Source: Robiginitomaculum sp. | GTDB lineage: Bacteria; Pseudomonadota; Alphaproteobacteria; Caulobacterales; Maricaulaceae | DNA length: 64,000 bases | Reading direction: 5' to 3' | NCBI GenBank assembly: GCA_016765135.1 | Contig: JAESQN010000016.1 | Coordinates: forward strand, 1-64,000 | Part shown: positions 11,189-28,117 of the stretch, piece after piece | Layout: the number at the start of each line of letters is the position of its first letter | Position numbering within the stretch: the first letter of the stretch is position 1 | The notes under the pieces: generated by a model | What the model was told of the DNA's origin: nothing | Database searches by the model: none | The model's input: the letters and a program-made list of their open reading frames with translations, nothing else | Made by a program: the position numbers and the translations under genes

Positions 11189-12160
11189 CTATTTTTTATT
11201 GAGCTGTTTTATCAGCGCGTCAAACTGCTCCAGGGTTTTGTATCTTATGCTCAATGTCCCGCCAGGGTTTTTATGGGTTATGGTCACATTCATGCCGAGG
11301 TTTTGCGACATTTTGCGTTCTATAGCATGCAGGTTTGCATCACGAACATCGTCGCCCGGACGCGAGTTTCTCAAGGCCTTGCGGGCCGTATTGGCCCATC
11401 TTTCGGCGGCCCGCACCGATAGCCCGTCTTGGACAATAGCGTCGGCGAGAGCTTGAGGGTCAGGCGCGGACAATATTGCGCGGGCGTGACCGGCTGTGAT
11501 TTTCCCGTCCTCAAGATATTCTTGGGCCAATTCCGGTAGCTTCAACAACCGCAAACAATTGGCCACATGGGGGCGGCTTTTGCCGATAGCTTCGGCGATT
11601 TCGGCTTGCTTGCGGCCAAATTGCCGGATCAAAGCTCCGTAAGCTTTGGCCTCCTCCATGGGATTTAAATCGGCCCGCTGCACATTTTCTATGACGCCGA
11701 TTTCCAGTATTTCCAGATCTGACAAATCCCGGATAAGCGCAGGTATGGTCTCCAGCCCGGCTGCTTGGGCCGCGTGCCAGCGCCGTTCCCCGGCCACGAT
11801 CTGGTAGCGGTCGGATATTTTTTTGCCCTTGGCACCATATGTTGTCGGCAAAGGCCGCACCAATATTGGCTGTAATACGCCTTTTGATTTGATGGAGCTG
11901 GCTAGCTCTGCCAGTTTTTCTTTGTCGAAATGTTTGCGCGGCTGTGCGTGGTTACGCCCCAATTTATCAATGGGAATTTCGTGAATACCGCCGCGCACCA
12001 AAGCTTGCTTCCTGTCAAGGCCGCGCTTGTTATCGCGCACGGGCGGGCGGCCTTCGTCTTTTGTCGGTGGCTCTGGCGTTTTTTCAGGTGTCGCAATATC
12101 CGTCATCAAAGCCGACAACCCGCGCCCCAATTTTGAAGCTGTCTGTTTTTTCCTAGACAT
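11189..12160 (-). CDS. parB: chromosome-partitioning protein ParB
   Basis: A ParB/Spo0J CTPase clamp of 323 aa that loads at parS and spreads on DNA. It has the N-terminal GRGLSALM motif, IPIDKLGRNHAQPRKHFD, the CTP-binding box GERRWHA (usual form GERRxRA), the HTH segment IGKSRPHVANCLRLLKLP, and a C-terminal dimerisation tail ending LIKQLNKK. It overlaps the parA stop by 8 bases. Three perfect parS sites lie 5-8 kb away in rsmG, upstream of mnmG and in mnmE, consistent with an origin-proximal ParABS system. Confidence 0.96.
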   Translation of the reverse strand: MSRKKQTASKLGRGLSALMTDIATPEKTPEPPTKDEGRPPVRDNKRGLDRKQALVRGGIHEIPIDKLGRNHAQPRKHFDKEKLAELASSIKSKGVLQPILVRPLPTTYGAKGKKISDRYQIVAGERRWHAAQAAGLETIPALIRDLSDLEILEIGVIENVQRADLNPMEEAKAYGALIRQFGRKQAEIAEAIGKSRPHVANCLRLLKLPELAQEYLEDGKITAGHARAILSAPDPQALADAIVQDGLSVRAAERWANTARKALRNSRPGDDVRDANLHAIERKMSQNLGMNVTITHKNPGGTLSIRYKTLEQFDALIKQLNKK

Positions 12161-12968
12161 ATTTGTCTCCTTTTAATTTGCCATTTTTCTTGCCGTGGCG
12201 GCGCAATAATTCATTAGCCAGCGCCATATAAGCCAGCGCGCCTTTACAGTTCGGGTCATATTCTGTCACTGGCTTGCCAAATGACGGCGCTTCGGCGATG
12301 CGCACATTTCGCGGGATTATCGTGTCCAGCACGGCACGGCCTAGATGTTTGCGCACATCTGCCGCCACTTGGTCAGACAACCTGTTGCGCTTGTCATACA
12401 TGGTCAGCATCACCCCGTCGATCACCAGATCAGGATTAACCGACGCCTTGGCGACCTCGATGGTTTTCAGGAGTTGCGACAACCCCTCCAAAGCATAAAA
12501 CTCGCACTGCAAAGGCACCAAAACAGACCGCGCTGCCGACAAAGCATTAACGGTCAACAGCCCAAGGGCGGGCGGGCAATCGATCAACACATAATCCGGC
12601 GGGCTATCGAGCCCCGCCAAATAATCCGCCAGCGCAGATTTAAGCCGCGTCGTCCGCCCCGCCGCATTACCAATAGCCAGCTCGGCCCCGGTCATATCCA
12701 TATCGGACGCGACCAATGTCAACCCGTCAACATCCGTATCTATCACCGCACCCGCCAACGCCGCTTCGTCAACAATCACATCATAAAGGGTCACATCCGT
12801 CGTGCCGCGAACCCGGCCAAGCCCGGTGGTCGCATTGCCCTGGGGATCCAAATCCACCAGCAAAACCCTCTGCCCCAAAGCCGCCAAAGCCGCAGCCAAA
12901 TTGATAGACGTAGTGGTTTTCCCCACCCCGCCCTTTTGGTTGACGATAGCAATTGTGCGTGTGGTCAT
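12153..12968 (-). CDS. parA: chromosome-partitioning ATPase ParA (Soj)
   Basis: A MinD/ParA-type ATPase of 271 aa that drives ParB-parS complexes apart. The deviant Walker A motif KGGVGKTTT is at residues 12-20, with LLVDLDPQGNATTGLG (Walker A') and DYVLIDCPPALGLLT (Walker B) following. Start ATG 12968. Normally parA directly follows rsmG. Here a restriction-modification gene, a small HTH gene and palindromic repeats intervene. Its first codons occur again twice upstream as short noncoding copies (13091-13120 and, diverged, 16731-16767). Confidence 0.97.
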   Translation of the reverse strand: MTTRTIAIVNQKGGVGKTTTSINLAAALAALGQRVLLVDLDPQGNATTGLGRVRGTTDVTLYDVIVDEAALAGAVIDTDVDGLTLVASDMDMTGAELAIGNAAGRTTRLKSALADYLAGLDSPPDYVLIDCPPALGLLTVNALSAARSVLVPLQCEFYALEGLSQLLKTIEVAKASVNPDLVIDGVMLTMYDKRNRLSDQVAADVRKHLGRAVLDTIIPRNVRIAEAPSFGKPVTEYDPNCKGALAYMALANELLRRHGKKNGKLKGDKYV

Positions 12969-13348: not shown

Positions 13349-16300
13349 TCACGTACCACCCCCCAAATCCATTTTTATGCTCTGCATAATCCGGTCTGTC
13401 TCGGACAGGATTTTTATAATTTTTTGGTAGTGGCGGATATCGTCGAAAGAAAGGGTGCGGCCCTTGCGGTCTTTTAGCCATTTTTGGGCCGGTTGATAAC
13501 CGCCGATGTAAAACTCCCATGCGGCCAATGGCACGTCTTCGAAATACTGGGTTTTGTTAATGTGGACTGTGCCCATATCATTGGTGCCGGGCGTGAATTT
13601 TGGCTTGTCCACCACACTGTCACCCATTTTGTTTTCTTCGCCCTCAAAGCGGTAGGGCGTATCGCCAATGGCGGACGCCTCCATTAAATGTAGCTTGCGC
13701 AATAATGTACCCTTGGCACTGATGTCCCAAAAGCCAGCGGGCGAAGCCGGATAGGGCACACGGGGGAAATCTATTTTCAGGAATTCCTTATAGGTGTCCC
13801 GGTAGCCAGGACAGTGCAACACCCCGTAAATATAATCAAATATTTGAACCTCGTCTGGCACACCATGTTTTTTACCGCTAGCGGCCTTTTCTATTTTGCC
13901 CCGGATTTTAGCGTCCATATTAACAGTACGCTCAGTAGGCGCAAAAGCATCGGATTGTTCAGTGGTGGTGTCGGGGTAGAGGTAGAGGGGGATACCATAT
14001 CCAATTTCTGATGTTTTATTTGACACAAAACTAGATTCCACAATGTTTTCAAAAACTAAAGCGTGTTGAAAGTAAGAGGCTTTTTGCTGCTTAGAAACCA
14101 TTAGCCCTAAGTTTTCTCCAGCAAGGAAATGGCGCATGACTTCATTTCGTGGATAGCAAAGAAAGCCTCGCGATTTGCCTGTATAAAAAGTCCACCTTGT
14201 ATCAAATGGTCGATAAGAAATTTTAGTTAATTGTTTTTGGTTGAAATGATTTTGTACATCTTCAATAGCCCATTTTACTTTCCAGTCACGAACATCTTTC
14301 CCTAAATTATATTTGTTTCTAAGAACTTCGGAATCCAGTGTGGTAAAGTCCTGCACACGTTGCCACAAATCGTTTTTGTTTTTATCAACGGTCAAGCTGT
14401 CGCGTGCCGTCACAATACCAACCGAATTTACAGGCATGAGTTCATTCACGGAAAACCCGTGATTATATTGTTCTTCCAAAGCAAAGTCCCGCACGACAAA
14501 TGGGTATTGCGGTTTTTGGTTTTTTAGAAGCTTGGCGCTGGCTTTTTTACGTTGCTGTTTCCAAAGCGCGTCGTATTTATCCTGCCGTGCGCCCCATAAA
14601 TCCCCGTGATAGACTTTCGCGAGCTTGTCGGATTTCTTCTTGGTTTTAACCGCAACAATAATGCTGACGCCCTGCATAATATCAAACACATTTTTGTCTG
14701 GCGAGCCATCAGGTGCGACTTCCTTTTTCTTGGCATTGCCGTGCAAATCCAGCACATGGATTTTGTCAAATGTCTTGAGCAAATGCCAACGCATGCCGCG
14801 AAATGTCGGGTTATCGAGATAGCCGTGATTGGTAATATAGGCGAGAATACCTTCACCGTTTTTTTCAATCAAATGCTCCCCGAAGCGAATGAACTTTACA
14901 TAATCGTCGTTAATCCATTTCGGGTTGCGCTCTTTAAGTTTTTCCTTACCGCCCGGTTCTTTTTTATAGGCCTGCATCAAACCTTCAATCCATTCAAAGC
15001 CCTTGCCTTTATTGCCGCTCTCGCCCGAATAGGGCGGGTTGCCTATAATACACATTATTGGCTTGTCGCGTTTTACTTCGTTGGCGCCTTTGGCTTCGTC
15101 GGACAGCCATCTTGCCATGAACAAATCGCGGACTTCGCGCTCGCCTTCTTCCAGTGAATTGGTCAGAAAAACATTCAGGCGCGGCGGCTCGGCTTTGGTT
15201 GGCTTGTAGCCCATATCGGTCAGCATCATATCCAATTTCATATGGCACATGGCATAGCTGGCCATCAAAAGCTCAAACCCGTGCAAGCGCGGGATCAAAT
15301 CGTCCTCCACATATTTTGACCAATGGGCCGGAGCGATGTCTTGGATTTTAGGTGCGATCTGCTTGATAACTTCGGCCAAAAATGTGCCGGTTCCCGTCGC
15401 CGGGTCGAGGATTTGCACCCGGTGCATTTCGCGCATTTCGGTTTTGGCTTTACCGCTTTTGTCGCTTTGTCCCGTATCAATTTTGACTGATATTTTGGAG
15501 GTATCGGCTAAGCCATCGCTCAGGCCAAATTCGGATTTCAAGACATCATCCACGGCCCGGACGATAAAATTAACCACGGGTTCGGGCGTGTACCACACAC
15601 CTCTGGCTTTGCGTTTTTTGGGATTATACTCGGCCAGAAAAGTTTCGTAAAAATGGATGAACGGGTCTTTGCGTTGGTTTTCATTTCCGGAAATTTCAAA
15701 CAGTTTTTGCAAATTGACCGCCTGAAATATTTCCGCCAACTCGTCCACATCGCGGCGCAAACGCTCGTCCAAATTTGGCCCGGCCACATAGGAAAATAGC
15801 TTGCGCAAAAACGGGTTGGATTTGGGCAGTAAGTCCAAAGCTTCCTCGCGGGAAAAGTCCTCCGGCGTTTCGTCGTGCAAACGGGCCGCAAACAGGCCGT
15901 AAGCAATGGTTTCGGCGTATATATCGGCGAAGCTTTCTATGGTCAAATCATGGATAAGCTGATCTTTGAACGCTTTGTATTGTCCAGCCAGTTCGCTCTC
16001 TAGATCAATGTCCGCCAGCAAAGTATTAGCCAATACGGTTTTGATCAACACCGCCTTGCCCGCCATCATCTGGGCCAATGCTTTGGCGGATGTGATGGTT
16101 TGTAAACGCTGGCGGGTGAAGTCTTTCAGGGCCGCATAGAGCGCACCGTAGTTTTCGGGTTTTGGTGCAATACCCATAAGGAAATCCGCAACACTAACCT
16201 CACGCACCAATTCGCCTTTGACATAAAAGCGAAAGTCCAGACCATTGGTATAAACAAGGTTTGGCAGACCTTTGACATAGCGGTCAAACTGCGCCTTGTT

Positions 16301-16588
16301 GCCGCCTTGCATGGCACGCGGATTGATGTCTTTATCAATGTCCTTGGCCTCGCAATGCCCGACGGTGATTTGCTGGCTATCTTTGTTTTTGCCAATAGTG
16401 CGCTTAAAGACAAAATCCGGGCGGCCAACATCTGTGACCATTTTCGGCTCATTGATACAGCGCACATCATCAGCAACACCGTCAAACAAAAACCCCAGCG
16501 CCGCACGAAACGAATGCTCAGTAGTAACCCCCGTAGCATAAACGGATTGCACCTTGGCCAGATAATCAGCGATGTGTTGTTCGTTCAT
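13349..16588 (-). CDS. single-chain restriction-modification enzyme (type ISP/IIG-like, no helicase)
   Basis: A 1079-residue fusion of nuclease, adenine methyltransferase and specificity regions. The N-terminus has a PD-(D/E)xK nuclease signature: E24, P57-D58, and E80-A-K82. The methylase core has GVWYTP (330-335, motif X), DPATGTGTF (395-403, SAM motif I) and NPPY (517-520, catalytic motif IV of N6-adenine methyltransferases). The roughly 500-residue C-terminus resembles the target-recognition part of type ISP enzymes. It lacks the helicase domain of LlaGI-type enzymes, which places it nearer type IIG. AAGGGGAG precedes the ATG. It is an accessory module inserted in the rsmG-parA interval. 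Confidence 0.88.
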   Translation of the reverse strand: MNEQHIADYLAKVQSVYATGVTTEHSFRAALGFLFDGVADDVRCINEPKMVTDVGRPDFVFKRTIGKNKDSQQITVGHCEAKDIDKDINPRAMQGGNKAQFDRYVKGLPNLVYTNGLDFRFYVKGELVREVSVADFLMGIAPKPENYGALYAALKDFTRQRLQTITSAKALAQMMAGKAVLIKTVLANTLLADIDLESELAGQYKAFKDQLIHDLTIESFADIYAETIAYGLFAARLHDETPEDFSREEALDLLPKSNPFLRKLFSYVAGPNLDERLRRDVDELAEIFQAVNLQKLFEISGNENQRKDPFIHFYETFLAEYNPKKRKARGVWYTPEPVVNFIVRAVDDVLKSEFGLSDGLADTSKISVKIDTGQSDKSGKAKTEMREMHRVQILDPATGTGTFLAEVIKQIAPKIQDIAPAHWSKYVEDDLIPRLHGFELLMASYAMCHMKLDMMLTDMGYKPTKAEPPRLNVFLTNSLEEGEREVRDLFMARWLSDEAKGANEVKRDKPIMCIIGNPPYSGESGNKGKGFEWIEGLMQAYKKEPGGKEKLKERNPKWINDDYVKFIRFGEHLIEKNGEGILAYITNHGYLDNPTFRGMRWHLLKTFDKIHVLDLHGNAKKKEVAPDGSPDKNVFDIMQGVSIIVAVKTKKKSDKLAKVYHGDLWGARQDKYDALWKQQRKKASAKLLKNQKPQYPFVVRDFALEEQYNHGFSVNELMPVNSVGIVTARDSLTVDKNKNDLWQRVQDFTTLDSEVLRNKYNLGKDVRDWKVKWAIEDVQNHFNQKQLTKISYRPFDTRWTFYTGKSRGFLCYPRNEVMRHFLAGENLGLMVSKQQKASYFQHALVFENIVESSFVSNKTSEIGYGIPLYLYPDTTTEQSDAFAPTERTVNMDAKIRGKIEKAASGKKHGVPDEVQIFDYIYGVLHCPGYRDTYKEFLKIDFPRVPYPASPAGFWDISAKGTLLRKLHLMEASAIGDTPYRFEGEENKMGDSVVDKPKFTPGTNDMGTVHINKTQYFEDVPLAAWEFYIGGYQPAQKWLKDRKGRTLSFDDIRHYQKIIKILSETDRIMQSIKMDLGGGT

Positions 16589-17067: not shown

Positions 17068-17724
17068 TTACGCCCCTTTGCGCAAATTGGTGATACACAA
17101 TATTTTTGCGGCTTCACTGGTCTGGCTGTCTTTTGTGGTCAGGTCAAAGTTGTGGGTTTTGCGGGCGGCATCTACCTCACTTTGCCAGTTTTCACCTTTG
17201 GGGAAAATAGCTTGCGAACTGGCCCCCCAAAACGGCAAGCTATAGTCCAGCAATTTGGGCAAAGGCGCAAAGGCGCGGGCGGTGATTATATCATACATTT
17301 GTGGCTCCAGGTTTTCCGCCCGCGCCTGTACGGCTTTGGCGGGCAGGGTCAGGTCTCGGATAACCGTGCGCAGGAAATTGCATTTTTTGCCGTTGGATTC
17401 GACCAATGTTATTTGCACCTCCGGTTTGTTTTTCAGCTCATTTTTTAGGCCATTTTTGAGCCCGTTTTTCACTCCAATGGCCAAAGCCAAGCCCGGAAAT
17501 CCGGCACCCGCACCCATATCAAGTACGGTTTTTGTACCCTCTGGCAACAGGTTTATGAGCTGCCAACTATCCATAGCATGACGCAACCAGAAATCGTGTA
17601 ATGTTGCCGAGGAAACTAGATTTATCTTTTTATTCCAACGGGTTAGCAGGTTGTACCACGCCTCTAAGTCTTCCAATGTTTCACGTGAAACATTGGTTTT
17701 GTGTTGAAATTGTTCCGCATTCAT
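17068..17724 (-). CDS. rsmG: 16S rRNA (guanine-N7) methyltransferase RsmG (GidB)
   Basis: Methylates G527 of 16S rRNA. 218 aa, with the SAM-binding motif VLDMGAGAGFPGLALAIG and the family's WNKKINLVSS segment near the N-terminus. The residues NVSRET near position 11 are encoded by a perfect parS site, a combination seen in other Alphaproteobacteria. I start it at ATG 17724, one base after the mnmG stop (TAATATG), rather than at the longer frame to 17772. A lysine/asparagine-rich insertion (KNGLKNGLKNELKN), built of short repeats, sits in the middle. It is followed directly by the small HTH gene. Confidence 0.94.
   Translation of the reverse strand: MNAEQFQHKTNVSRETLEDLEAWYNLLTRWNKKINLVSSATLHDFWLRHAMDSWQLINLLPEGTKTVLDMGAGAGFPGLALAIGVKNGLKNGLKNELKNKPEVQITLVESNGKKCNFLRTVIRDLTLPAKAVQARAENLEPQMYDIITARAFAPLPKLLDYSLPFWGASSQAIFPKGENWQSEVDAARKTHNFDLTTKDSQTSEAAKILCITNLRKGA
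17677..17692. promoter_or_regulatory. parS site 1 (perfect)
   Basis: The 16-bp palindrome TGTTTCACGTGAAACA is the canonical ParB/Spo0J binding site. It lies in the rsmG coding region, where it encodes part of NVSRET. Confidence 0.95.
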
Positions 17725-19679: not shown

Positions 19680-19695
19680 TGTTTCACGTGAAACA
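19680..19695. promoter_or_regulatory. parS site 2 (perfect)
   Basis: TGTTTCACGTGAAACA in the gap between mnmE and mnmG, where no coding constraint explains it. Confidence 0.95.
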
Positions 19696-19712: not shown

Positions 19713-21056
19713 CTATTTTCCAATGCAAAACTGCGAAAAAACCCTGTCTAAAACCGCTTCTATGTCGGATTCTCCCGCCAACTCTTTGATGGCGCCCAAG
19801 GCATGACGTAGATCGGCCCCAGCTAATTCAGGTGCGATACTTAGGTTTTTATTTGCGTTTTCTACCGCCTTCAAGGCACTCCGTACGCAATCCACATGCC
19901 GTGTTCTGGTTAAGCCGGCTTGTTCGGTAAGCGAAAATCGGGATATTATCTCCCGCTCAAGGGCGGATTCTAGTTCATCAAAGCCTTCTCCGGATACAGT
20001 GCTGATCGCAAATGTTTCACGTGAAACATTTTCAAGATCTGACCCATTTGACAGGTCTGCTTTATTGTACAAAACAAAATCTCCAGCAGTTAAAGTAGTG
20101 AGTACCTCATTGTTTTTATTGGACAAATCAATCACACCGAGCCGTAGATCAGCATCACGGGCGCGGCGTTTAGCCCGCCTCACCCCCTCTGCCTCAACTA
20201 CATTATCGGTCTCGCGTAGACCCGCGGTGTCGGAAATACACACTGGCAGCCCGGCAATGTGCGTGTGTACCTCGACTATATCGCGGGTTGTTCCAGCTTC
20301 AGGTGTAACAATAGCCGCATCTCGCCGAGCCAGGCGGTTTAAAATACTTGATTTTCCGGCGTTTGGCGCACCGATAATAGCAATATCCAATCCAGAACGA
20401 ACACGCTCACCACGTTTGCTGTCCGCAATTTGCCCCTTTAGCTCTTTAGCCAGGGCTTTTAAGCCCGGCCCAGCTTTTTGAGCTAGGGCGTCCGGTACAT
20501 CACCTTCATCTGGAAAATCTATTTCTCCCTCAACAAGGGCAAATGCATCAAGAATTTGGGTGCGCCAACCCTCATATATATCTCGCAAACCACCACGCAT
20601 TTGTCGCAGCGCTTGTCGTCGTTGACCGTCGCTTTGCGCGTCGATTAAATCTGCCAGCCCTTCAGCTTCAGTTAAATCTAGCTTGCCGTTTTCAAAGGCC
20701 CGGCGCGTAAATTCGCCCGCGTCAGCCTGGCGCAAACCAAGGTCATATAACGCGGTACTCACAGCCTCGATCACAGCCACACTACCGTGGATGTGAAACT
20801 CCACCACATCCTCACCTGTAAAGCTGGCTGGGGCAGGAAACCATAACACCAAAGCTTCGTCGATGCGGTCTTTGTTGGTATCCTGCAATACCCGCAATCT
20901 GGCCATGCGCGGCGGCGGTAATTTACGGCCACTTAGCTTGCACAAAACCTCACCGGCTTTGGGACCACTTATGCGCATAACCGCTACCCCGGCCCTACCC
21001 TGCGCCGTCGCTAAAGCGAATATTGTGTCAGCAAATATAGTTTCGCGGGTTTTCAT
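19713..21056 (-). CDS. mnmE: tRNA uridine-5-carboxymethylaminomethyl(34) synthesis GTPase MnmE (TrmE)
   Basis: The GTPase partner of MnmG in wobble-uridine modification. About 447 aa from the chosen ATG. It has the N-terminal folate-binding domain (TIFALATAQGRAGVAVMRISGP), a helical region, a G domain with GAPNAGKSSILNRL (P-loop), TPEAGTTRD and DTAGLRET, and the invariant C-terminal CIGK. The frame is open to 21095, but I start at ATG 21056 because family homology begins there. No strong ribosome-binding site is visible. A perfect parS (20013-20028) encodes the NVSRET segment of its G domain. Confidence 0.95.
   Translation of the reverse strand: MKTRETIFADTIFALATAQGRAGVAVMRISGPKAGEVLCKLSGRKLPPPRMARLRVLQDTNKDRIDEALVLWFPAPASFTGEDVVEFHIHGSVAVIEAVSTALYDLGLRQADAGEFTRRAFENGKLDLTEAEGLADLIDAQSDGQRRQALRQMRGGLRDIYEGWRTQILDAFALVEGEIDFPDEGDVPDALAQKAGPGLKALAKELKGQIADSKRGERVRSGLDIAIIGAPNAGKSSILNRLARRDAAIVTPEAGTTRDIVEVHTHIAGLPVCISDTAGLRETDNVVEAEGVRRAKRRARDADLRLGVIDLSNKNNEVLTTLTAGDFVLYNKADLSNGSDLENVSRETFAISTVSGEGFDELESALEREIISRFSLTEQAGLTRTRHVDCVRSALKAVENANKNLSIAPELAGADLRHALGAIKELAGESDIEAVLDRVFSQFCIGK
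20013..20028. promoter_or_regulatory. parS site 3 (perfect)
   Basis: TGTTTCACGTGAAACA inside mnmE, encoding NVSRET as in rsmG. With sites 1 and 2 it forms a cluster spread over 2.4 kb. Confidence 0.95.
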
Positions 21057-21161: not shown

Positions 21162-22160
21162 GTGTTCACTCATAACGGCAAAAAAAATGGTTATATAGTA
21201 ACAACGGTGGCGGTTTCAACGCTGTTTCTTGGCGCTCTCTCGTCGTGCCAGAAGACCAACACCCCAACTGAAAAGCTTAACATCGACGAGAGAGGCCGTA
21301 ATATAGCGACAAATAACGGTGATATTACGCCATACCCTTCCGTTTTAGAGCTATTTACCTGCAAACCAAGTGATGTAGCCTTTGTGGCCGCCCATCGCGG
21401 TACCCATGAAAGTTCAAAATATCCAGAAAATACCGTAGAGAGCTTACAGGCATTACATGAAAATGGTGTGCAGTTTGCTGAAATTGATGTTGCCCGCCTT
21501 AAAGATGGTACCCAGTTTCTTTTTCATGACGGCACCTGGGATCTCAGATCAACCGGCACAGGCCCAATCACTATGACGACATGGGAGCAGTCTCAACAAA
21601 TATTTCTCAAGGATACCAACGGCAAAATAACGTCAATTCGCCCTAGCTCTTTTGCAGATATACTTGCCTTCGCCAAAGACAAAATCTATCTTGAAATAGA
21701 TTTCCAACCTTCCGTAGATGAAGCGAAAGTTTTAAACAGTATTCGAGACGCTGATATGACGGATCAGGTTATTTTAATCTCCCATAACGCAGAACAAGCT
21801 TTACGCCTGTACAAACTTGCGCCGAAAATGGCTTTATCTGTAGGCATTTTCACTCCCGGCGATATTAAAAAAATGGAAGACCTCGGCATACCGACCAATA
21901 TTATGACCGTCTGGACAGGAGAAAAGCAGGTTCCAGACGATCTAGCCAAAGCTCTACGAGATAAAAAAATCCCAATTATAGTCGGGTCATTCGATCTTGA
22001 TGATATACTTCAGGCAAGTGGTGATTTTACCCCCTATACAAATTTCGCCATCCACCCCGATTTGGTTGTCAGTGATTTTGCATTCGACGCCCAAGAAACA
22101 CTGCAAATTAAAGGCGAAGACAAGTCCAGATTGGATGCGTGTTTAAAGGCAAACAAATAA
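21162..22160 (+). CDS. glycerophosphodiester phosphodiesterase-family lipoprotein, copy 1
   Basis: A 332-residue exported lipoprotein. The signal peptide ends in the lipobox LSSC (Cys about residue 29). The mature part is a GDPD TIM barrel: AAHRGTHE (catalytic His-Arg), EIDVARLKDG (metal-binding Glu/Asp), FHDGTWDLRSTGTG (second catalytic His), then YLEIDFQ. These enzymes release glycerol-3-phosphate from phospholipid-derived diesters. The start is GTG with AGGAGA five bases upstream. It is divergent from mnmE and followed by a tandem paralogue with the same layout. Confidence 0.9.
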   Translation: MFTHNGKKNGYIVTTVAVSTLFLGALSSCQKTNTPTEKLNIDERGRNIATNNGDITPYPSVLELFTCKPSDVAFVAAHRGTHESSKYPENTVESLQALHENGVQFAEIDVARLKDGTQFLFHDGTWDLRSTGTGPITMTTWEQSQQIFLKDTNGKITSIRPSSFADILAFAKDKIYLEIDFQPSVDEAKVLNSIRDADMTDQVILISHNAEQALRLYKLAPKMALSVGIFTPGDIKKMEDLGIPTNIMTVWTGEKQVPDDLAKALRDKKIPIIVGSFDLDDILQASGDFTPYTNFAIHPDLVVSDFAFDAQETLQIKGEDKSRLDACLKANK

Positions 22161-22166
22161 ATATAC

Positions 22167-22182
22167 TGTGACAATTTGCACA
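22167..22182. promoter_or_regulatory. CRP/FNR-like dyad after GDPD copy 1
   Basis: TGTGACAATTTGCACA is a TGTGA-N6-(T)CACA-type dyad with one mismatch, 7 bp after the first GDPD gene and 65 bp before the second. A related perfect dyad follows the second gene. It may regulate copy 2 or be a piece of the duplicated unit. Confidence 0.4.
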
Positions 22183-22246
22183 TAGTTATAGCAATAATGC
22201 TAACCTTGCATTGCGAGCAAGGGTATATATTTACAGGAGAAATAAA

Positions 22247-23248
22247 TTGTCTTCAAAAACGTTCAGGCTTAGTAATACTATAGCTTTATTGGTGCTATCC
22301 ACAGTTTTAGCTAGCACTCTCTCGTCGTGCCAGAAACATAGTATCCCAACTGAAAATCTTAAGGTCAACGAGAAAAGCCGTAATATTACGTCAACAAACG
22401 ATAATATTACGCCATATCCATCCGTGCTTAGTCTTTTTGCCTGCAAGCCTGCCCATAGGGCTTTCGTAGCTGCGCACCGGGGCACGCACGAAGGGTCAAC
22501 ATTTCCCGAAAATACTCTCGAAAGCTTACAAGAGTTACATGCGAAAGGTGTGCCTTTTGCAGAAATTGATATTGCCCGGCTAAAAGACGGCACCCAGTTT
22601 CTATTCCACGACGGTACATGGGACCGTGGCACGACAGGAACCGGGCCTATTGCCGTATCGTCCTGGCAGCAATCCCAACTATTATTGCTCAAGGACACCA
22701 ATGGAGATCTGACATCCTATCGCCCGAGCGCATTTTCAAATGTCCTTGCTTTTGCAAAAGATAAAATCTATTTGGAGATCGACTTCAAATCGTCTGTAGA
22801 CGAAGCAAAGGTTGTAGACAGTATTCGCGCCGCTGATATGTTGGATCAAGTTATCCTGATCGCCTACGACAATGATCAAGCCTTGCGTCTACATAAACTG
22901 GCACCAACAGCCGCATTGTCAGTCGGTATTTTCAAGCCAGCCGACATAGAGATGTTCGAAAACCTGGGCATTCCCGCAAGCGTTATGACTGCATGGACAG
23001 GTAGAGGCCCGATCACAGACGAGCTAGCCAAAGCCTTACGCGCCCGCAAAATTCCGATTTTAGCTGGATCATTTTTCGACCTTGATGACAAATTACAAGC
23101 ATCGGGCAATTTCACACCCTACACCCAATATGCCGTGCACCCTGATTTGGTGGTAAGCGACTTTGCCTTCGACACCCAACCCGTGCTAGAAATTACCGGA
23201 GACGATAAAATAAAAATGGAAGCGTGTCTGAAGAAAACCCCTAGATAA
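22247..23248 (+). CDS. glycerophosphodiester phosphodiesterase-family lipoprotein, copy 2
   Basis: A tandem paralogue of the preceding gene, about 333 aa. It has the lipobox LSSC followed by QKHSIPTENL (copy 1: QKTNTPTEKL), then AAHRGTHEGS, EIDIARLKDG, FHDGTWDRGTTGTG and YLEIDF, so all catalytic motifs are kept. I place the start at TTG 22247 because AGGAGA (22235-22240) is six bases upstream. The frame extends to a TTG at 22211 without such support. Copies are clearly similar at DNA level around the signal peptide, so the duplication is not ancient. It is convergent with coaE. Confidence 0.88.
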   Translation: MSSKTFRLSNTIALLVLSTVLASTLSSCQKHSIPTENLKVNEKSRNITSTNDNITPYPSVLSLFACKPAHRAFVAAHRGTHEGSTFPENTLESLQELHAKGVPFAEIDIARLKDGTQFLFHDGTWDRGTTGTGPIAVSSWQQSQLLLLKDTNGDLTSYRPSAFSNVLAFAKDKIYLEIDFKSSVDEAKVVDSIRAADMLDQVILIAYDNDQALRLHKLAPTAALSVGIFKPADIEMFENLGIPASVMTAWTGRGPITDELAKALRARKIPILAGSFFDLDDKLQASGNFTPYTQYAVHPDLVVSDFAFDTQPVLEITGDDKIKMEACLKKTPR

Positions 23249-23292: not shown

Positions 23293-23883
23293 TTATTTTC
23301 CCAGTATTTCTTGCATGATGCTTTGAACCCGCTTGCGGGCGTGGGATAGGCCTTTATCTGTGTGTATTATATAGTCCGCTTTGGCACGTTTTTGTGCATC
23401 GGGGTATTGGCGGGATTTGATAAGTGCGAATTTTTCCTCCGTCATTCCGGGCCGGGCCAAAACGCGCTCCCGCTGTACGGCGGCATTGGCCGTGACGACA
23501 ACTATTTTATCTACATGGGCATCACTACCCGTTTCGAATAACAGCGGAATATCAGCAACAAAAACCTCATGACCTTCGACTTTCGCTAGCGCTATAGCGT
23601 CTTGGCGTAAAGCCAACACCATTGGATGGATAAAGCTTTCCAGCACCTCAATGTTTAAAGTGTCTTTTTTTAAATGTACGAGCAATTTTCCTCGATCAAC
23701 CGCACCTGCGACAATCACATCTGGAAACACGGCCCGTAACAAAGGCACGGCCGCACCATTTTTAGCATATAATGCATGCACGGCGGCATCTGCGTCAAAC
23801 ACAAATGCCCCGGCGTCTTCGAACATTTTTGCAGTTGCGGTTTTCCCCATACCGATAGAACCTGTCAAACCAACAATTATCAT
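23293..23883 (-). CDS. coaE: dephospho-CoA kinase CoaE
   Basis: Catalyses the last step of coenzyme A synthesis, ATP-dependent 3'-phosphorylation of dephospho-CoA. 196 aa, normal length. P-loop GLTGSIGMGKT at residues 5-15, then FDADAAVHALY (substrate contact), PLLFETGSD and SRQYPDAQKRAKADYII. The ATG overlaps the aroE stop by four bases (ATGA), so translation is coupled. It is last in the ppsR-maf-aroE-coaE operon, the order seen beside the Caulobacter origin. Confidence 0.95.
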   Translation of the reverse strand: MIIVGLTGSIGMGKTATAKMFEDAGAFVFDADAAVHALYAKNGAAVPLLRAVFPDVIVAGAVDRGKLLVHLKKDTLNIEVLESFIHPMVLALRQDAIALAKVEGHEVFVADIPLLFETGSDAHVDKIVVVTANAAVQRERVLARPGMTEEKFALIKSRQYPDAQKRAKADYIIHTDKGLSHARKRVQSIMQEILGK

Positions 23884-24755
23884 TTGTCTGCTTTCAAGTG
23901 GTTGAGCAATATGGTTTTTATGTTGTCGTCAGCTGGTGCGTCCACGCCGTAAAACAATTTAAAAGATGGGCGCGCCTGGGCGATGAGCATATCAAGGCCG
24001 CCGATCGTTCGTAGTCCGTACGCTTTGGCTTGTTTAAGTAAGCCCGTGTTTAGGGGTGTGTATACCAGATCATATACCCATGCATCGCCCGGCATGTATT
24101 TCAAATTTAAATCCAAATCCTCATGTCCGGACATGCCAGCGGCGCTGGCATTGATCAATAAGCCAGCACCTGAAATAGCTTCTTGTCGCTTTGCCCAATC
24201 ACAAGCATATAGGCTAGGAATATTGACAGTAGCTGCCAGTTTTTTCGCCCGCGCATCTGTACGGTTAAGCAAACGAATTTCCGGAGCACCTAAGGCCAAT
24301 AAAGACCCCAAGACCGCCCGCGCAGCGCCGCCCGCACCAATTATAGTCACCGCGTTGTTCAAAATAAAATTATGCCCAACGTGCTGCAAAAGCGGCCCCG
24401 CGAAACCCTCCATATCCGTATTGTGCCCTATGAGTTTACCATTTTTTTTATAAAGCACATTACACACACCTAATTTCATTGCGTCTGAGCTAAGTTCGTC
24501 TGCAGCTTCAAAGGCTAAACCTTTCAAAGGAATGGTTACATTCAGCCCGGATATGGTCGTTTTTTTGAGGCTCTGAAACGCATATTTAGCTTCGCCCGGA
24601 TGCACAGCAAACATAGTATAAGCCCCGCGTATAGCGCCTTGACGTAGCCAGTAATTATGCAAAACCGGGGATAGAGAGTGGTGAATAGGCCAACCTGCCA
24701 CTCCGGCAAGTTTTAATATATTGCTCTTTTGATTTTGGCTTGCGTTCATACTCAT
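23880..24755 (-). CDS. aroE: shikimate dehydrogenase AroE
   Basis: NADPH-dependent reduction of 3-dehydroshikimate to shikimate in aromatic amino-acid synthesis. 291 aa. GWPIHHSLSPVLHNYWL (substrate-binding), NVTIPLKGLAFE (catalytic lysine), GHNTDMEGF, the NADP motif TIIGAGGAARAVLGSLLALG and C-terminal GGLDMLIAQARPSFKLFYG are all present. ATGs at 24755 and 24749 are both possible starts. It lies 3 bp after the maf stop and overlaps coaE. Confidence 0.95.
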   Translation of the reverse strand: MSMNASQNQKSNILKLAGVAGWPIHHSLSPVLHNYWLRQGAIRGAYTMFAVHPGEAKYAFQSLKKTTISGLNVTIPLKGLAFEAADELSSDAMKLGVCNVLYKKNGKLIGHNTDMEGFAGPLLQHVGHNFILNNAVTIIGAGGAARAVLGSLLALGAPEIRLLNRTDARAKKLAATVNIPSLYACDWAKRQEAISGAGLLINASAAGMSGHEDLDLNLKYMPGDAWVYDLVYTPLNTGLLKQAKAYGLRTIGGLDMLIAQARPSFKLFYGVDAPADDNIKTILLNHLKADK

Positions 24756-24758
24756 ACC

Positions 24759-25361
24759 CTAACTCAAAATGGCGCCACGACGACGCAATTCTGCAAGTAA
24801 AGGTAAAAGCGACAACCCAAGAATTGAGAAGTAATCTCCCTCTACTTTTTCAAACAATTGTGCGCCGTATGTTTCAAATTTATATCCTCCGACACAAGCT
24901 AACACGCTCCGGCCCTCTTTTTTCATGTAGTCGTCTAAAAACGCATCGCTAAATTTCCGCATGGTGAGCTTGGCAACACTCGTGTAATGCCAATTCGCGG
25001 TGTTTTTTTGTACGACACATACGGCCCCAACAAGCCTATGTTCCTGGCCACGCAACATCAATAAACGCTCTATGGTTTCTTGACGGGTTTTAGGTTTATC
25101 AAAAACTTTCCCGTCAAACTCCAGCACCTGGTCTGCGCCAATAACAACCGTGTCGTCGCTGGTTTTAACCGCTAAGGCTTTGTCCAACGCCAAACGTTCA
25201 ACCAGTTGTGACGCCGGGCAACCTTCATTTAAAAACCTGTCCTTTACAATCGCCTCATTTATATTTGTAGGTTTGCATGTAAATTTAATGCCCGCATTTG
25301 TCATTATATCAAAGCGTATAGAGCTGGCTGATGCCAATATTATAGTGTTATGGGTTTCCAT
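24759..25361 (-). CDS. maf: Maf-family nucleotide pyrophosphatase
   Basis: A house-cleaning nucleoside triphosphate pyrophosphatase that removes modified or non-canonical nucleotides. 200 aa. The N-terminal signature is IILASASSIRFDIMTNAGI (usually SxSPRR; here SSIR, a departure in the phosphate-binding loop). VVIGADQVLEFDGKVFDKPKTR and the C-terminal VEGDYFSILGLSLLPLL follow. Second in the operon, six bases after ppsR. Confidence 0.92.
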   Translation of the reverse strand: METHNTIILASASSIRFDIMTNAGIKFTCKPTNINEAIVKDRFLNEGCPASQLVERLALDKALAVKTSDDTVVIGADQVLEFDGKVFDKPKTRQETIERLLMLRGQEHRLVGAVCVVQKNTANWHYTSVAKLTMRKFSDAFLDDYMKKEGRSVLACVGGYKFETYGAQLFEKVEGDYFSILGLSLLPLLAELRRRGAILS

Positions 25362-25367
25362 TTTGGC

Positions 25368-26216
25368 CTACTGTCTGTCTTTATATAGGTTAATAATCCG
25401 TGCGGATGTTTCTTCTATAGACCGCCGCGATACATCGACTATAGGCCAGTTGTTTTTCGCGAAAAACCGTTTGGCTGCCATCATCTCTGAGCGGACTTTT
25501 TGCTTGTCCACATAATCAGAATTTGGATTATCGCCCAAGGAAGAAAGTCGGTGGCGACGGATTTGTACTATTCTATCGGGGCTGGACACCAGACCGACAA
25601 TCAATGGTTTTGTCATTGCTGTGATTTGTGCAGGAATTTTGGCACCAGGAACAAGGGGTATATTTCCTGCTTTGAAACCCCGGTTGGCCAAATAAATACA
25701 AGTTGGTGTTTTTGATGTACGGCTCACACCGAGCAAGATTATATCTGCCTGCGCTAATCCCTCAATATTTTGTCCATCATCATGATTCATAGCAAAATCT
25801 AGCGCCCCCATACGAGAAAAATATTCTTCGTCCATTGTTCTTTGCGCACCTACTTCAGAACTCATTGGCGCCCCGAGATAACGTCCTAGCGTTGCTAATG
25901 AAGGATCCAAAATAGAGACCGCAGGTATGTTTAATTCAGCACACCGTTGTTCCAAACGACGACGGCGGTTTTGATTGACCAGAGTATAAAACACCACGCC
26001 GGGAAATCCCTCTACAAGCCCAAGCGCTTTCTCCAATTGTTGTTCAGACCGCACCAAAGCATGCAGGTGTTCAACAGCTAATCCGTTCTGGTATTGTGCG
26101 CAGCTGGCTCTAGACATCCCAACCAATGTTTCACCAGTAGAATCCGAAACCAAATGAATATGAAAATATATAGACCTTATACTGTTTTCCCGATTTGTCT
26201 CAAATGTCGTACTCAT
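25368..26216 (-). CDS. ppsR: pyruvate, phosphate dikinase/PEP synthase regulatory protein (DUF299)
   Basis: A bifunctional kinase/pyrophosphorylase that switches PEP synthase or pyruvate phosphate dikinase by ADP-dependent phosphorylation. 282 aa from ATG 26216, chosen because AGGAA lies six bases upstream. Motifs: HLVSDSTGETLVGMSRA near the N-terminus, the P-loop-like ILLGVSRTSKTPTCIYLANRG, and YVDKQKVRSEMMAAKRFF. It is first in its operon and borders the candidate origin. In Caulobacter the gene of this family likewise flanks the origin. Confidence 0.93.
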   Translation of the reverse strand: MSTTFETNRENSIRSIYFHIHLVSDSTGETLVGMSRASCAQYQNGLAVEHLHALVRSEQQLEKALGLVEGFPGVVFYTLVNQNRRRRLEQRCAELNIPAVSILDPSLATLGRYLGAPMSSEVGAQRTMDEEYFSRMGALDFAMNHDDGQNIEGLAQADIILLGVSRTSKTPTCIYLANRGFKAGNIPLVPGAKIPAQITAMTKPLIVGLVSSPDRIVQIRRHRLSSLGDNPNSDYVDKQKVRSEMMAAKRFFAKNNWPIVDVSRRSIEETSARIINLYKDRQ

Positions 26217-26240
26217 ACAAAATTCCTGTCTCTGCCACAA

Positions 26241-26803
26241 TTCCTGTCTCTGGTCCTGAATTTGGGGATTATCAAGGTTTTATCCACCGGGCTTAGTCAT
26301 TATATGAGTTGTTTAGGCCTTACGGGGATAGAATCCAAGGTTTTGCACAAATTATCCTCATGTAGATATTTATAACAATGAGAATGTGCAAAACTGTTGA
26401 TAAAAAGTTATCCAGAAACATATCCCCTATAAAACACCCTAAATAATTGTTTTATTTAGCAAATTTACTTGGATGCTAATTTATCCCAAATATCAACAGA
26501 TCTTAGAATGTGTGCATATTAACAGATTATTAGTATATCTTACCAAAACCTTAATTTTTAACACAAATTCACACCCCCTATTACAATCACAATTTATATA
26601 TATAAAAAAGAGGAGGATAACATATGTGTAAATATCAGGGATATATCTAAACAAACAGATTTTAGGTAATTTTTTCTTGACGGTCAAAATGACTATAGGA
26701 TATATAGAAGCATCCCCGGATTTTGGATATATGTATTTCCTAAATCCCAAAAGTGCGTTGTCCTAACGCCATGTTTTTCAAACACCTAACAAAAAGCAGT
26801 ATT
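26241..26803. other. candidate chromosome origin of replication (oriC)
   Basis: About 560 bp of AT-rich noncoding DNA between ppsR and rho, with both genes transcribed away from it. It holds four near-consensus DnaA boxes within 137 bp (see separate entry), two weaker ones near 26481-26499, a 9-bp inverted repeat TTTTGCACA (26341-26349) / TGTGCAAAA (26385-26393), and a long A/T-rich stretch (about 26430-26720) suitable for unwinding. TTAA-N7-TTAG at 26519-26533 resembles a CtrA site. ParABS genes and parS sites are within 14 kb. hemE, which borders this region in Caulobacter, is not here. The identification is inference from site clustering and gene order. Confidence 0.72.
26280..26416. promoter_or_regulatory. 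cluster of DnaA-box-like sites
   Basis: Four 9-mers each match TTATCCACA at 8 of 9 positions: TTATCCACC (26280-26288), TTATCCTCA (26352-26360), TTATCAACA on the minus strand (26395-26403) and TTATCCAGA (26408-26416). Two weaker ones follow (TTATCCCAA at 26481, ATATCAACA at 26489-26498). Confidence 0.7.
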
Positions 26804-28117
26804 ATGAACATAGCTAAAAAGCTTGACCCGGCTGAAATTGATATTGATTCGATAACAAAGATTGGTCTCGATGATCTTAAAAAGAAGAAACCGGCTGAAT
26901 TGGTGCAATTTGCAGAGGCTGTTGGCCTTGAAAATGCGGGCGCTATGCGAAAGCAAGAAATTTTTGTAGCCGTGCTAAAAGAACTGGCCGACGACGGTGT
27001 TGAAATATCCGGTACTGGTGTTTTGGAAATGTTACAAGACGGGTTTGGTTTTTTACGCTCCCCAGAAGCTAATTATTTAGCTGGCCCAGATGATATTTAT
27101 GTGAGCCCAAAATTGATCCAAAAAATGGGTTTGCGTACAGGTGATACACTGTCAGGTGAAATTCGTAGTCCTCGTGACGGCGAACGGTATTTTGCTCTTA
27201 CCAAAGTACATTCTGTAAACTTTGAAACCCCGGAAGAAGCGCGCAATAAAGTCCATTTTGACAATCTGACGCCGCTCTATCCAGATGACCGACTAACAAT
27301 GGAAATTGAGGACCCAACCTTGAAGGATATTTCTGGTCGGGTGATAGACATAGTTTCGCCGATCGGGAAAGGTCAACGTTGCTTAATCGTTGCCCCACCA
27401 CGAACAGGTAAAACCGTAATTCTGCAAAACATTGCCCATTCAATAGAAGCCAATCATCCGGAAGTTTATGTCATAGTTTTGTTAATAGACGAACGACCCG
27501 AAGAAGTGACAGATATGCAAAGATCGGTCAAAGGTGAAGTGGTAAGTTCCACCTTTGACGAGCCGGCAACCCGCCATGTTCAAGTGGCGGAAATGGTGAT
27601 CCAAAAAGCAAAACGCCTAACCGAACACGGCAAAGACGTGATTATTTTGCTGGATTCCATCACCCGCCTGGGCCGTGCTTATAACACGGTTGTACCAAGC
27701 TCCGGCAAGGTTTTAACCGGCGGTGTAGATGCCAATGCCCTACAACGTCCAAAACGGTTTTTTGGTGCTGCTAGAAATATTGAAGAAGGTGGATCGCTGA
27801 CAATCATTGCCACAGCCTTGATCGAAACAGGTTCGCGAATGGACGAGGTTATTTTCGAAGAGTTTAAAGGTACGGGTAATTCAGAAATTGTGCTTGACCG
27901 TAAGGTCGCAGATAAACGGGTTTTCCCGGCAATTGACGTGACCAAATCCGGTACTCGTAAGGAAGAGTTGTTATTAAGCGCGGCTGAATTACAAAAAACC
28001 TATGTCTTGAGACGCATCCTCAATCCCATGGGAACTATGGATGCTATCGAGTTTTTGCTGGGTAAATTAAAAGACACCAAAAGCAACGCCGAGTTCTTTG
28101 AAAGCATGAATACGTAA
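26804..28117 (+). CDS. rho: transcription termination factor Rho
   Basis: Hexameric RNA-dependent ATPase that releases RNA polymerase. 437 aa from the chosen ATG at 26804, where family homology starts ([15 protein letters not shown]). An upstream ATG at 26753 is in frame but probably noncoding. An N-terminal helical domain ([20 protein letters not shown]), an RNA-binding domain with [13 protein letters not shown], Walker A APPRTGKT, Walker [12 protein letters not shown] and the Q/R-loop region [11 protein letters not shown] are all intact. The first gene to the right of the candidate origin, with dnaQ 5 bp downstream. Confidence 0.96.

Follow-up and report, generated by a model that had tools for sequence, protein, structure and literature searches.

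A candidate chromosome origin between ppsR and rho in Robiginitomaculum and its conserved core

The ppsR-rho gap and its neighbors

The window analyzed here is a stretch of 64,000 nucleotides that forms the first part of contig C8 of a Robiginitomaculum draft genome (G000). The genome contained 2.87 Mb in 52 contigs and was 99.56% complete. The gap under study is the entire intergenic region between ppsR and rho (Table 1). It has a GC content of 31.8%, against 50.2% across 184 kb of the contig. The lowest GC content among 64 1-kb bins was 0.368, at positions 26001 to 27000. An AT-rich gap between outward-pointing neighbors had been noted in the first-pass annotation, and both points hold: ppsR lies on the minus strand and rho on the plus strand, each with a strong match. 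The genes maf, aroE, and coaE follow in series beyond ppsR, as that annotation had also stated.

Searches of the window for Rfam families and for tRNAs returned no match, and a promoter scan of the gap gave matches only at shuffle level. A tandem pair of glycerophosphodiester phosphodiesterase-like genes (21162-23248) adjoins mnmE. At least one copy of such a gene is present in the stretches of 8/10 relatives; those of G011 and G013 have none.

Table 1. Features of the ppsR-rho gap and its surroundings (positions in the window)
Feature	Position	Strand	Remarks
Probable oriC (whole ppsR-rho gap)	26241-26803		Low GC, DnaA-box density, skew minimum, class motif rank 1
parB	11189-12160	-	
parA	12153-12968	-	
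parS	17677-17692		Exact pattern
parS	19680-19695		Exact pattern
parS, within mnmE	20013-20028		Exact pattern
Inverted segment coaE-aroE-maf-ppsR-ori-rho	23293-28117		Between mnmE and dnaQ; compared with G004, G005, G006
coaE	23293-23883	-	
aroE	23880-24755	-	
maf	24759-25361	-	
ppsR (DUF299/COG1806), left flank	25368-26240	-	E 1.5e-92; real start possibly further inside
Weak DnaA box TAATCCCCA, 2 mismatches	26263-26271	-	One-mismatch box at this alignment column in five relatives
IHF-like site TATCAAGGTTTTA	26270-26282	+	Consensus match only
DnaA box TTATCCACC, 1 mismatch	26280-26288	+	Column within one mismatch in 5/11 genus gaps
Inverted repeat, predicted hairpin	26333-26401		Arms 26333-26349/26385-26401; DNA fold z = -3.26
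DnaA box TTATCCTCA, 1 mismatch	26352-26360	+	
DnaA box TTATCAACA, 1 mismatch	26395-26403	-	Column within one mismatch in 8/11 genus gaps
DnaA box TTATCCAGA, 1 mismatch	26408-26416	+	
Conserved core, basis of profile R1	26498-26632	+	78% mean column identity, 10 genus members
Genus-conserved block TGTGTGCATATTAA	26509-26522	+	
CtrA-like box 1, TTAA-N7-TTAG, 1 mismatch	26519-26533	+	Within 1 mismatch in 28/44 family cores
CtrA-like box 2, TTAC-N7-TTAA, 1 mismatch	26540-26554	+	21 nt from box 1; 32/44 family cores
Core DnaA-box-like site 1, TTTAACACA, 3 mismatches	26557-26565	+	1-2 mismatches in 25/44 family members
Core DnaA-box-like site 2, AAATTCACA, 3 mismatches	26565-26573	+	
Spacer, C-rich end	26574-26577	+	Sequence; 12 nt separate site 1 from array
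Trio-like array CTA TTA CAA TCA CAA TTT	26578-26595	+	
A/T-rich tract, proposed DNA unwinding element	26593-26609	+	A/T-rich tract here across family alignment
Purine tract GAGGAGG, conserved	26610-26616	+	
rho, right flank	26804-28117	+	E 5.5e-206
dnaQ, immediately beyond inverted segment	28123-28818	+	

DnaA boxes in the left half of the gap

Four boxes in the gap, each one mismatch from TTATCCACA, fall within 137 bp overall (26280-26416). The first-pass annotation had reported this cluster, and it stands: four boxes within 137 bp occurred in 0 of 5,000 dinucleotide shuffles of the gap, and four anywhere in the gap occurred in 0.04%. The gap thus has the above-chance DnaA-box cluster looked for in an oriC. 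It also contains the densest 300-bp cluster of DnaA boxes across 184 kb of the contig. An internal inverted repeat had been claimed as well and was found among the boxes. The earlier emphasis on this half of the gap was only partly right. The boxes are real, but they lie in the more variable half, and the conserved core to their right had been missed.

GC skew and parS sites

The first-pass annotation had proposed cumulative GC skew as a check. Over 184 kb of C8, one contig of the 52-contig draft, the minimum is at 26590, inside the gap. There are lesser dips near 52 kb and 100 kb. The minimum thus lies at the candidate site here, and it lies 35 to 66 kb off in three relatives. Within contiguous stretches, it was 35 kb from the core in G018, 66 kb in G059, and 61 kb in G004 (180 kb), each time toward the hemE/rho side. 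Skew therefore places the origin region and not the exact site. Two single-contig relatives were sampled at 20 stretches each. Their skew stops falling and begins to rise near the core, and it turns the opposite way about half a chromosome from it.

The exact parS pattern TGTTNCACGTGNAACA occurs without mismatch at only three sites genome-wide. Each reads TGTTTCACGTGAAACA, and all three are 6 to 9 kb from the gap. Their neighbors are mnmG (gidA), gidB, parA, and parB. A gene for a Type ISP restriction-modification protein (1079 aa; 13349-16588, minus strand) lies between gidB and parA, close to parS. In G004, G018, G059, and this genome, parS is 3 to 20 kb from the core. In G004 it lies toward rho from the core and in the other three toward ppsR, so the family has seen a change in how the core is oriented with respect to parS.

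In G018, dnaA is at the start of the record, which, if circular, would put it about 0.3 Mb from the core. A second match to DnaA domain IV in the Robiginitomaculum genome under study (L002, G000:C22:29395-29592) lies in a 135-residue frame separate from dnaA.

A conserved core in the right half of the gap

The gap and its core were described by their sequence, conservation, position, copy number, and neighbors, all of which are direct observations. Information content across 44 family members (10 from the genus and 34 others) was 0.83 bits per column in the core, 0.24 upstream, and 0.44 downstream. A sequence-only profile (R1) was built from ten genus members. It matches those ten by construction, with a single match per genome and no second match. 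The core is kept in all ten beside right-hand neighbors as different as rho, hemE, a GST gene, and the tail of ctrA. G013 was excluded from A1 and R1, as its contig ends inside the gap. Neither ppsR nor the core was found in G001, G002, and G012, which are 74 to 87% complete.

Elsewhere in the family, R1 has matches in another 40 genomes, for 50/137 overall. Each of those 40 has one match except G069, where two contigs each carry one near the start. Loci were examined from 34 of the 40 genomes outside the genus, and all 34 lie between ppsR and hemE. Across 398 genomes of the order, R1 matched 29, all from the same family.

Published criteria for a hemE/ppsR-type origin accept either flank (PMC1914354, as far as its available text goes). 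The gap has the ppsR flank and is homologous to hemE/ppsR gaps; the hemE flank is missing, and hemE was not found in the genome. By gap homology and one flank, the gap is classed from sequence as a hemE/ppsR-type alphaproteobacterial origin whose hemE flank is gone.

Elements of the core

The order of elements in the family is two CtrA-like boxes, two CCACA-type box-like sites, a spacer, a triplet array, an A/T tract, and a purine tract. The box-like sites are typically 8 nt apart among the 44 family members. The family triplets are near CTA CTA CTA TCA CTT CTT, with 12 nt from the first box-like site to the array. The polarity of box and trio strand follows the B. subtilis and E. coli origins and, in part, the papers cited here. 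The A/T-rich tract named in the first-pass annotation is present in this genome. No start codon consistently placed after the purine tract was seen in the genus. A purine tract, AGGGATA or similar, also follows the A/T tract in several of the class loci L236 to L265.

The CtrA-like TTAA-N7-TTAG of the first-pass annotation is there too, but the count of such sites is not above chance (2 versus a shuffle mean of 1.8). The number of sites was rejected as evidence, and only their conservation speaks for them. The gene ctrA was found in 14/14 genus genomes. With two conserved boxes, a count at chance level, and ctrA present, we lean toward CtrA control of the origin.

The published rule for a basal unwinding system (BUS) is a DnaA box within 2 mismatches, a spacer of 0 to 16, and at least three NAN trios (PMC8287927, in part). 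The BUS order of boxes, spacer, triplets, and A/T tract given in the same source is that of the family core. The pattern of the rule occurs in 27/44 family core segments, against a mean of 9.4 in mononucleotide shuffles. It does not occur in the core of this genome, which has three mismatches in each site and two leading NTN triplets only. The spacing from the better box to the array is 12 nt, inside the 10-to-13 range used as a BUS criterion. Looser BUS matches at other places in the gap carry little weight, as the DNA is A/T-rich. By these measures, this genome's copy of the module is degenerate. BUS-like opening at the core appears reasonably likely.

Probable loss of hemE and changes of the right-hand neighbor

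As the first-pass annotation had observed, rho takes the place of hemE beside the gap. A hemE (URO-D) protein was not found anywhere in this genome, despite its 99.56% completeness, and the search for ferrochelatase gave no match. The likeliest account is that hemE was lost from beside the origin, and this loss together with a local inversion explains rho in its place. URO-D and ferrochelatase are both missing in 5/14 genus genomes, this one included, which suggests that heme synthesis was lost inside the genus.

Of ten genus members, six have rho as the right-hand neighbor, two a GST-like gene (G008 and G009), one hemE (G006), and one ctrA (G003). The ctrA gene of G003 (L028:5336-6028) adjoins the origin core with its 3' end facing it. 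The ten other genus genomes with ppsR all have ctrA and ppsR on different contigs. G004, G005, G007, and G011 have rho next to the gap and oriented as in the old gene order. This genome and G010 carry an inversion between the mnmE side and dnaQ that spans the block rho-ori-ppsR-maf-aroE-coaE. Both outer flanks of the old order are visible in G004, G005, and G006; the stretches of G007 and G011 lack mnmE, and that of G007 also lacks dnaQ. The genus thus offers natural experiments. Core sequences survived the loss or replacement of the right-hand neighbor, and in one case an inversion turned the core around with respect to its outer neighbors.

A motif shared across the class

Origins of uncultured Alphaproteobacteria are usually inferred from neighbors and skew. 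A ppsR gene was found in 80/115 class genomes, this one included. Its upstream side was examined in 78 of the other 79, as sets of 29 and 49; G485 is outside these sets, its ppsR match being split in two. A hemE gene lies within 1.7 kb upstream of ppsR in 28/29 of the first set and 40/49 of the second. The array tests excluded L162 and nine of the 49 second-set loci, whose stretches contain no hemE. L195, with a gap of 1,629 bases, was excluded from the second array test.

A position matrix trained on the family was mostly not significant on the gaps of other families. For this reason, a statistic was developed on 28 gaps to test the array and then used without alteration on another 39. This 3-nt periodic C..A statistic was 6.71 on the forward strand of the first set, where it was devised, against 5.86 on the reverse strand and 6.06 for the null. 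In the 39 further gaps, it was 6.99 forward, 5.53 reverse, and 5.90 for the null, and 0/100 null sets reached the forward mean. The best arrays lie at 0.6 to 0.95 of the gap in 32/39 cases on the forward strand versus 18/39 on the other.

Expectation-maximization over 66 gaps from outside the family of the window gave one motif, roughly AATCCCCGTTTTCCACAGG...CAACTACCACCACCACCTTTTTTTT. L171 (a near copy of L170) and L195 were excluded from it. Its log-likelihood ratio was 826 from a chosen seed and 671 from the best of six random seeds, and one Markov-simulated set reached 148 with the best of five seeds. The motif centers at 0.6 to 0.95 of the gap in 63/66; the three sites outside this range were excluded from A2 and R2. 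Scored over both strands of 184 kb, it ranks position 26557 first of 367,890, a position inside the core and with the register unchanged. Its score at the gap was reached by 0/5,000 Markov versions of the gap. The motif also ranks first in the G004 and G059 stretches. For G018, the top-scoring site (16.1) falls within the gap on the opposite strand, and the second (14.6) is at the core, tied with a site outside.

We calibrated a 56-position profile of the class motif (R2). Its best match in the 64-kb window is at 26567-26609 with an E-value of 0.0057, and the next has 0.15. A genome-wide R2 scan under stricter filters reported no match in this genome. Of 389 class genomes, 238 had an R2 match with an E-value of at most 0.05, almost always a single one, and 151 had none; about 20 of the 389 are expected by chance at this threshold, and the E-values are rough. 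The 30 best loci were examined, 23 of them from genomes not used to build R2. Among these 23 unseen loci, 22 lie beside maf, ppsR, hemE, or rho. Fifteen are between ppsR and hemE, five are in loci without ppsR and lie between maf and hemE, one is beside hemE only, and one has maf and rho but no hemE. Many of the 23 genomes share a genus or family with the R2 training genomes; in the 11 loci from families absent from R2, 10 are in the origin neighborhood. R2 alone thus locates matches in 238/389 class genomes, and its best unseen matches sit where origins are expected from their neighbors. The unseen locus L254 (G802) has a strong match and none of the searched neighbors. It is perhaps an origin with wholly replaced flanks.

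Among seven named records, the class motif is clear in Sphingomonas (22.6) and Sphingopyxis (24.8), both Sphingomonadales. It is weak in two Sinorhizobium, Shinella, and Rhizobium (10.6 to 11.8) and very low in Methylobacterium (4.2), all Hyphomicrobiales. The motif is not universal in the class. Three records of 3.5 to 4.6 Mb labeled as plasmids (CP090106.1, NZ_CP104131.1, and NZ_CP069303.1) carry dnaA and ppsR, and CP090106.1 additionally carries hemE, hemJ, and rho. All three look like chromosomes.

The triplet array and DnaA

Across 63 arrays, the middle base on the box strand was A in 126, T in 104, C in 83, and G in 2 of 315 triplets. The array frame was chosen on a first C and a third A, and the middle base was unselected. 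G makes up 1.9% of the array. C recurs at lags of 3, 6, and 9 with values of 0.55, 0.51, and 0.47, against a lag-3 null of 0.37, and windows picked by a periodic motif favor such recurrence. The strand complementary to a CNA array reads 3'-GNT-5'.

According to published work, the middle base of a DnaA-trio must be A (PMC6727663, in the part available). In B. subtilis DnaA, Asn187 contacts this A and Arg202 and Glu228 contact the G, and C is tolerated for A in the B. subtilis trio (PMC10721633, likewise in part). Alignment of the DnaA of this genome to 8btg pairs Ala254 with Asn187, Lys272 with Arg202, Glu298 with Glu228, and Glu250 with Glu183. The residue at 187 is Tyr in Paracoccus, Trp in Sinorhizobium and Shinella, Phe in Sphingomonas, Ala in G059, Asn in G018, and Gln in E. 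coli. Ala, Tyr, Trp, or Phe is thus found in 6/7 alphaproteobacterial DnaA proteins, and Asn is found in the seventh. The middle base of the array is T in 5/6 triplets of G018 (Asn at 187; L092), 4/6 of G059 (Ala; L072), and 3/6 of this genome (Ala; L001).

A link between the array and residue 187 is a lead from sequence comparison, as a correlation would need more than the seven alphaproteobacterial proteins compared. It is not supported in Hyphomicrobiales, since the two Trp-bearing DnaA proteins come from that group, which is without a clear array. Many alphaproteobacterial origins may share an opening module of approximately AATCCCCGTTATCCACAGG-n3-(CNA)4-6-CCTTTT-A/T-rich, in which the trio would be relaxed to 3'-GNT-5', keeping its outer G and T but not its middle adenine, and the adenine-reading residue of DnaA replaced. 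Such a module would mark the origin by itself, also where hemE or ppsR is lacking. We regard this proposal, the relaxed trio included, as evenly balanced. Were the array to act as a DnaA-trio, it would break with the published middle-A requirement and be paired with a change in DnaA. The titles and abstract openings of the limited literature covered describe no CNA array for alphaproteobacterial DnaA-trios; the predicted trios in the supplements of PMC8287927 are outside that scope.

Proposed function and alternatives

The replication origin claimed in the first-pass annotation is supported by the skew minimum, the nearby parS sites and parAB, the DnaA boxes, the conserved core, and the first rank of the class motif. 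The gap is very probably the chromosome origin (oriC). From the arrangement of its elements, we infer how it may work. The box cluster at 26263-26416 would gather DnaA. DnaA would load from the weak co-oriented box-like sites at 26557-26573 and, across the 12-nt spacer, would be laid onto one strand of the 3-nt periodic array at 26578-26595. The A/T tract would then open to let the helicase load. Repression would come from CtrA, which would keep the origin closed when bound to the two boxes immediately upstream (26519-26554). An oriC with DnaA loading from the core, opening at the array, and repression by CtrA is the best explanation of the gap, and we consider it likely.

The core could instead be the promoter or leader of a neighbor (ancestrally hemE, now rho, or else ppsR). 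It is just upstream of hemE in the family loci examined, and it contains CtrA-like boxes and a purine tract resembling a ribosome-binding site. Against this, the core is kept with rho, hemE, GST, or a core-facing ctrA on its right, and promoter-like matches in the gap do not exceed those in shuffles. The module also persists in the five unseen maf and hemE loci without ppsR and in the maf and rho locus without hemE, which argues against a promoter of either gene. The parS sites and the skew fit an origin. We consider a promoter or leader highly improbable. It is also very unlikely that the true origin is elsewhere, at dnaA or tens of kilobases away at the skew turn of the relatives, with the gap serving as a DnaA-titration site. 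The displaced minima of G004, G018, and G059 speak for such a reading. In this genome, however, the minimum is inside the gap, parS is close to the core in all four genomes examined, and the dnaA gene of G018 is far from the core if its record is circular. Skew also failed in Hyphomonas, yet the measured origin there is close to hemE (PMC6650430, available in part).

A further alternative accepts the gap as the origin but takes the CNA array for something other than a DnaA-trio analogue, such as a G-poor melting aid, a site for another protein, or a sequence read on the opposite strand. This is possible, if rather unlikely. Its middle base is not conserved, G is scarce throughout, and the published rule requires A in the middle of the trio strand. 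The recurrence of C every three bases speaks for the trio-like reading, as does the position of the array after tandem DnaA-like boxes and before the A/T tract, which is the BUS order.

Comparison with known origins

The core resembles the BUS of Bacillus subtilis in the order and polarity of box, spacer (12 nt here; published peak 10 to 13), trinucleotide array, and A/T tract. It differs in that the middle base of the array is not conserved, the sites of this genome are weak, and Ala254 is aligned with Asn187. A further close system is the Hyphomonas neptunium origin, which is near hemE, with parAB about 7 kb away and unclear bioinformatic markers; that origin was measured by experiment, from marker frequency (PMC6650430).

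Cori of Caulobacter crescentus shares with the gap a ppsR (COG1806/DUF299) flank, DnaA, CtrA-like, and IHF-like sites, and A/T richness. Unlike at Cori, hemE was not found here and rho is adjacent. There is one close pair of CtrA-like sites beside the core here, and there are five along Cori (PMC1914354 and PMC4468827, both in part). The available text of PMC4468827 (2015) reports that CtrA sites were not seen in origins beyond Caulobacter and possibly Rickettsia, and that of PMC1914354 reports some predicted in Wolbachia and relatives. Should CtrA prove to bind there, the conserved CtrA-like pair described here would add to these CtrA-site origins.
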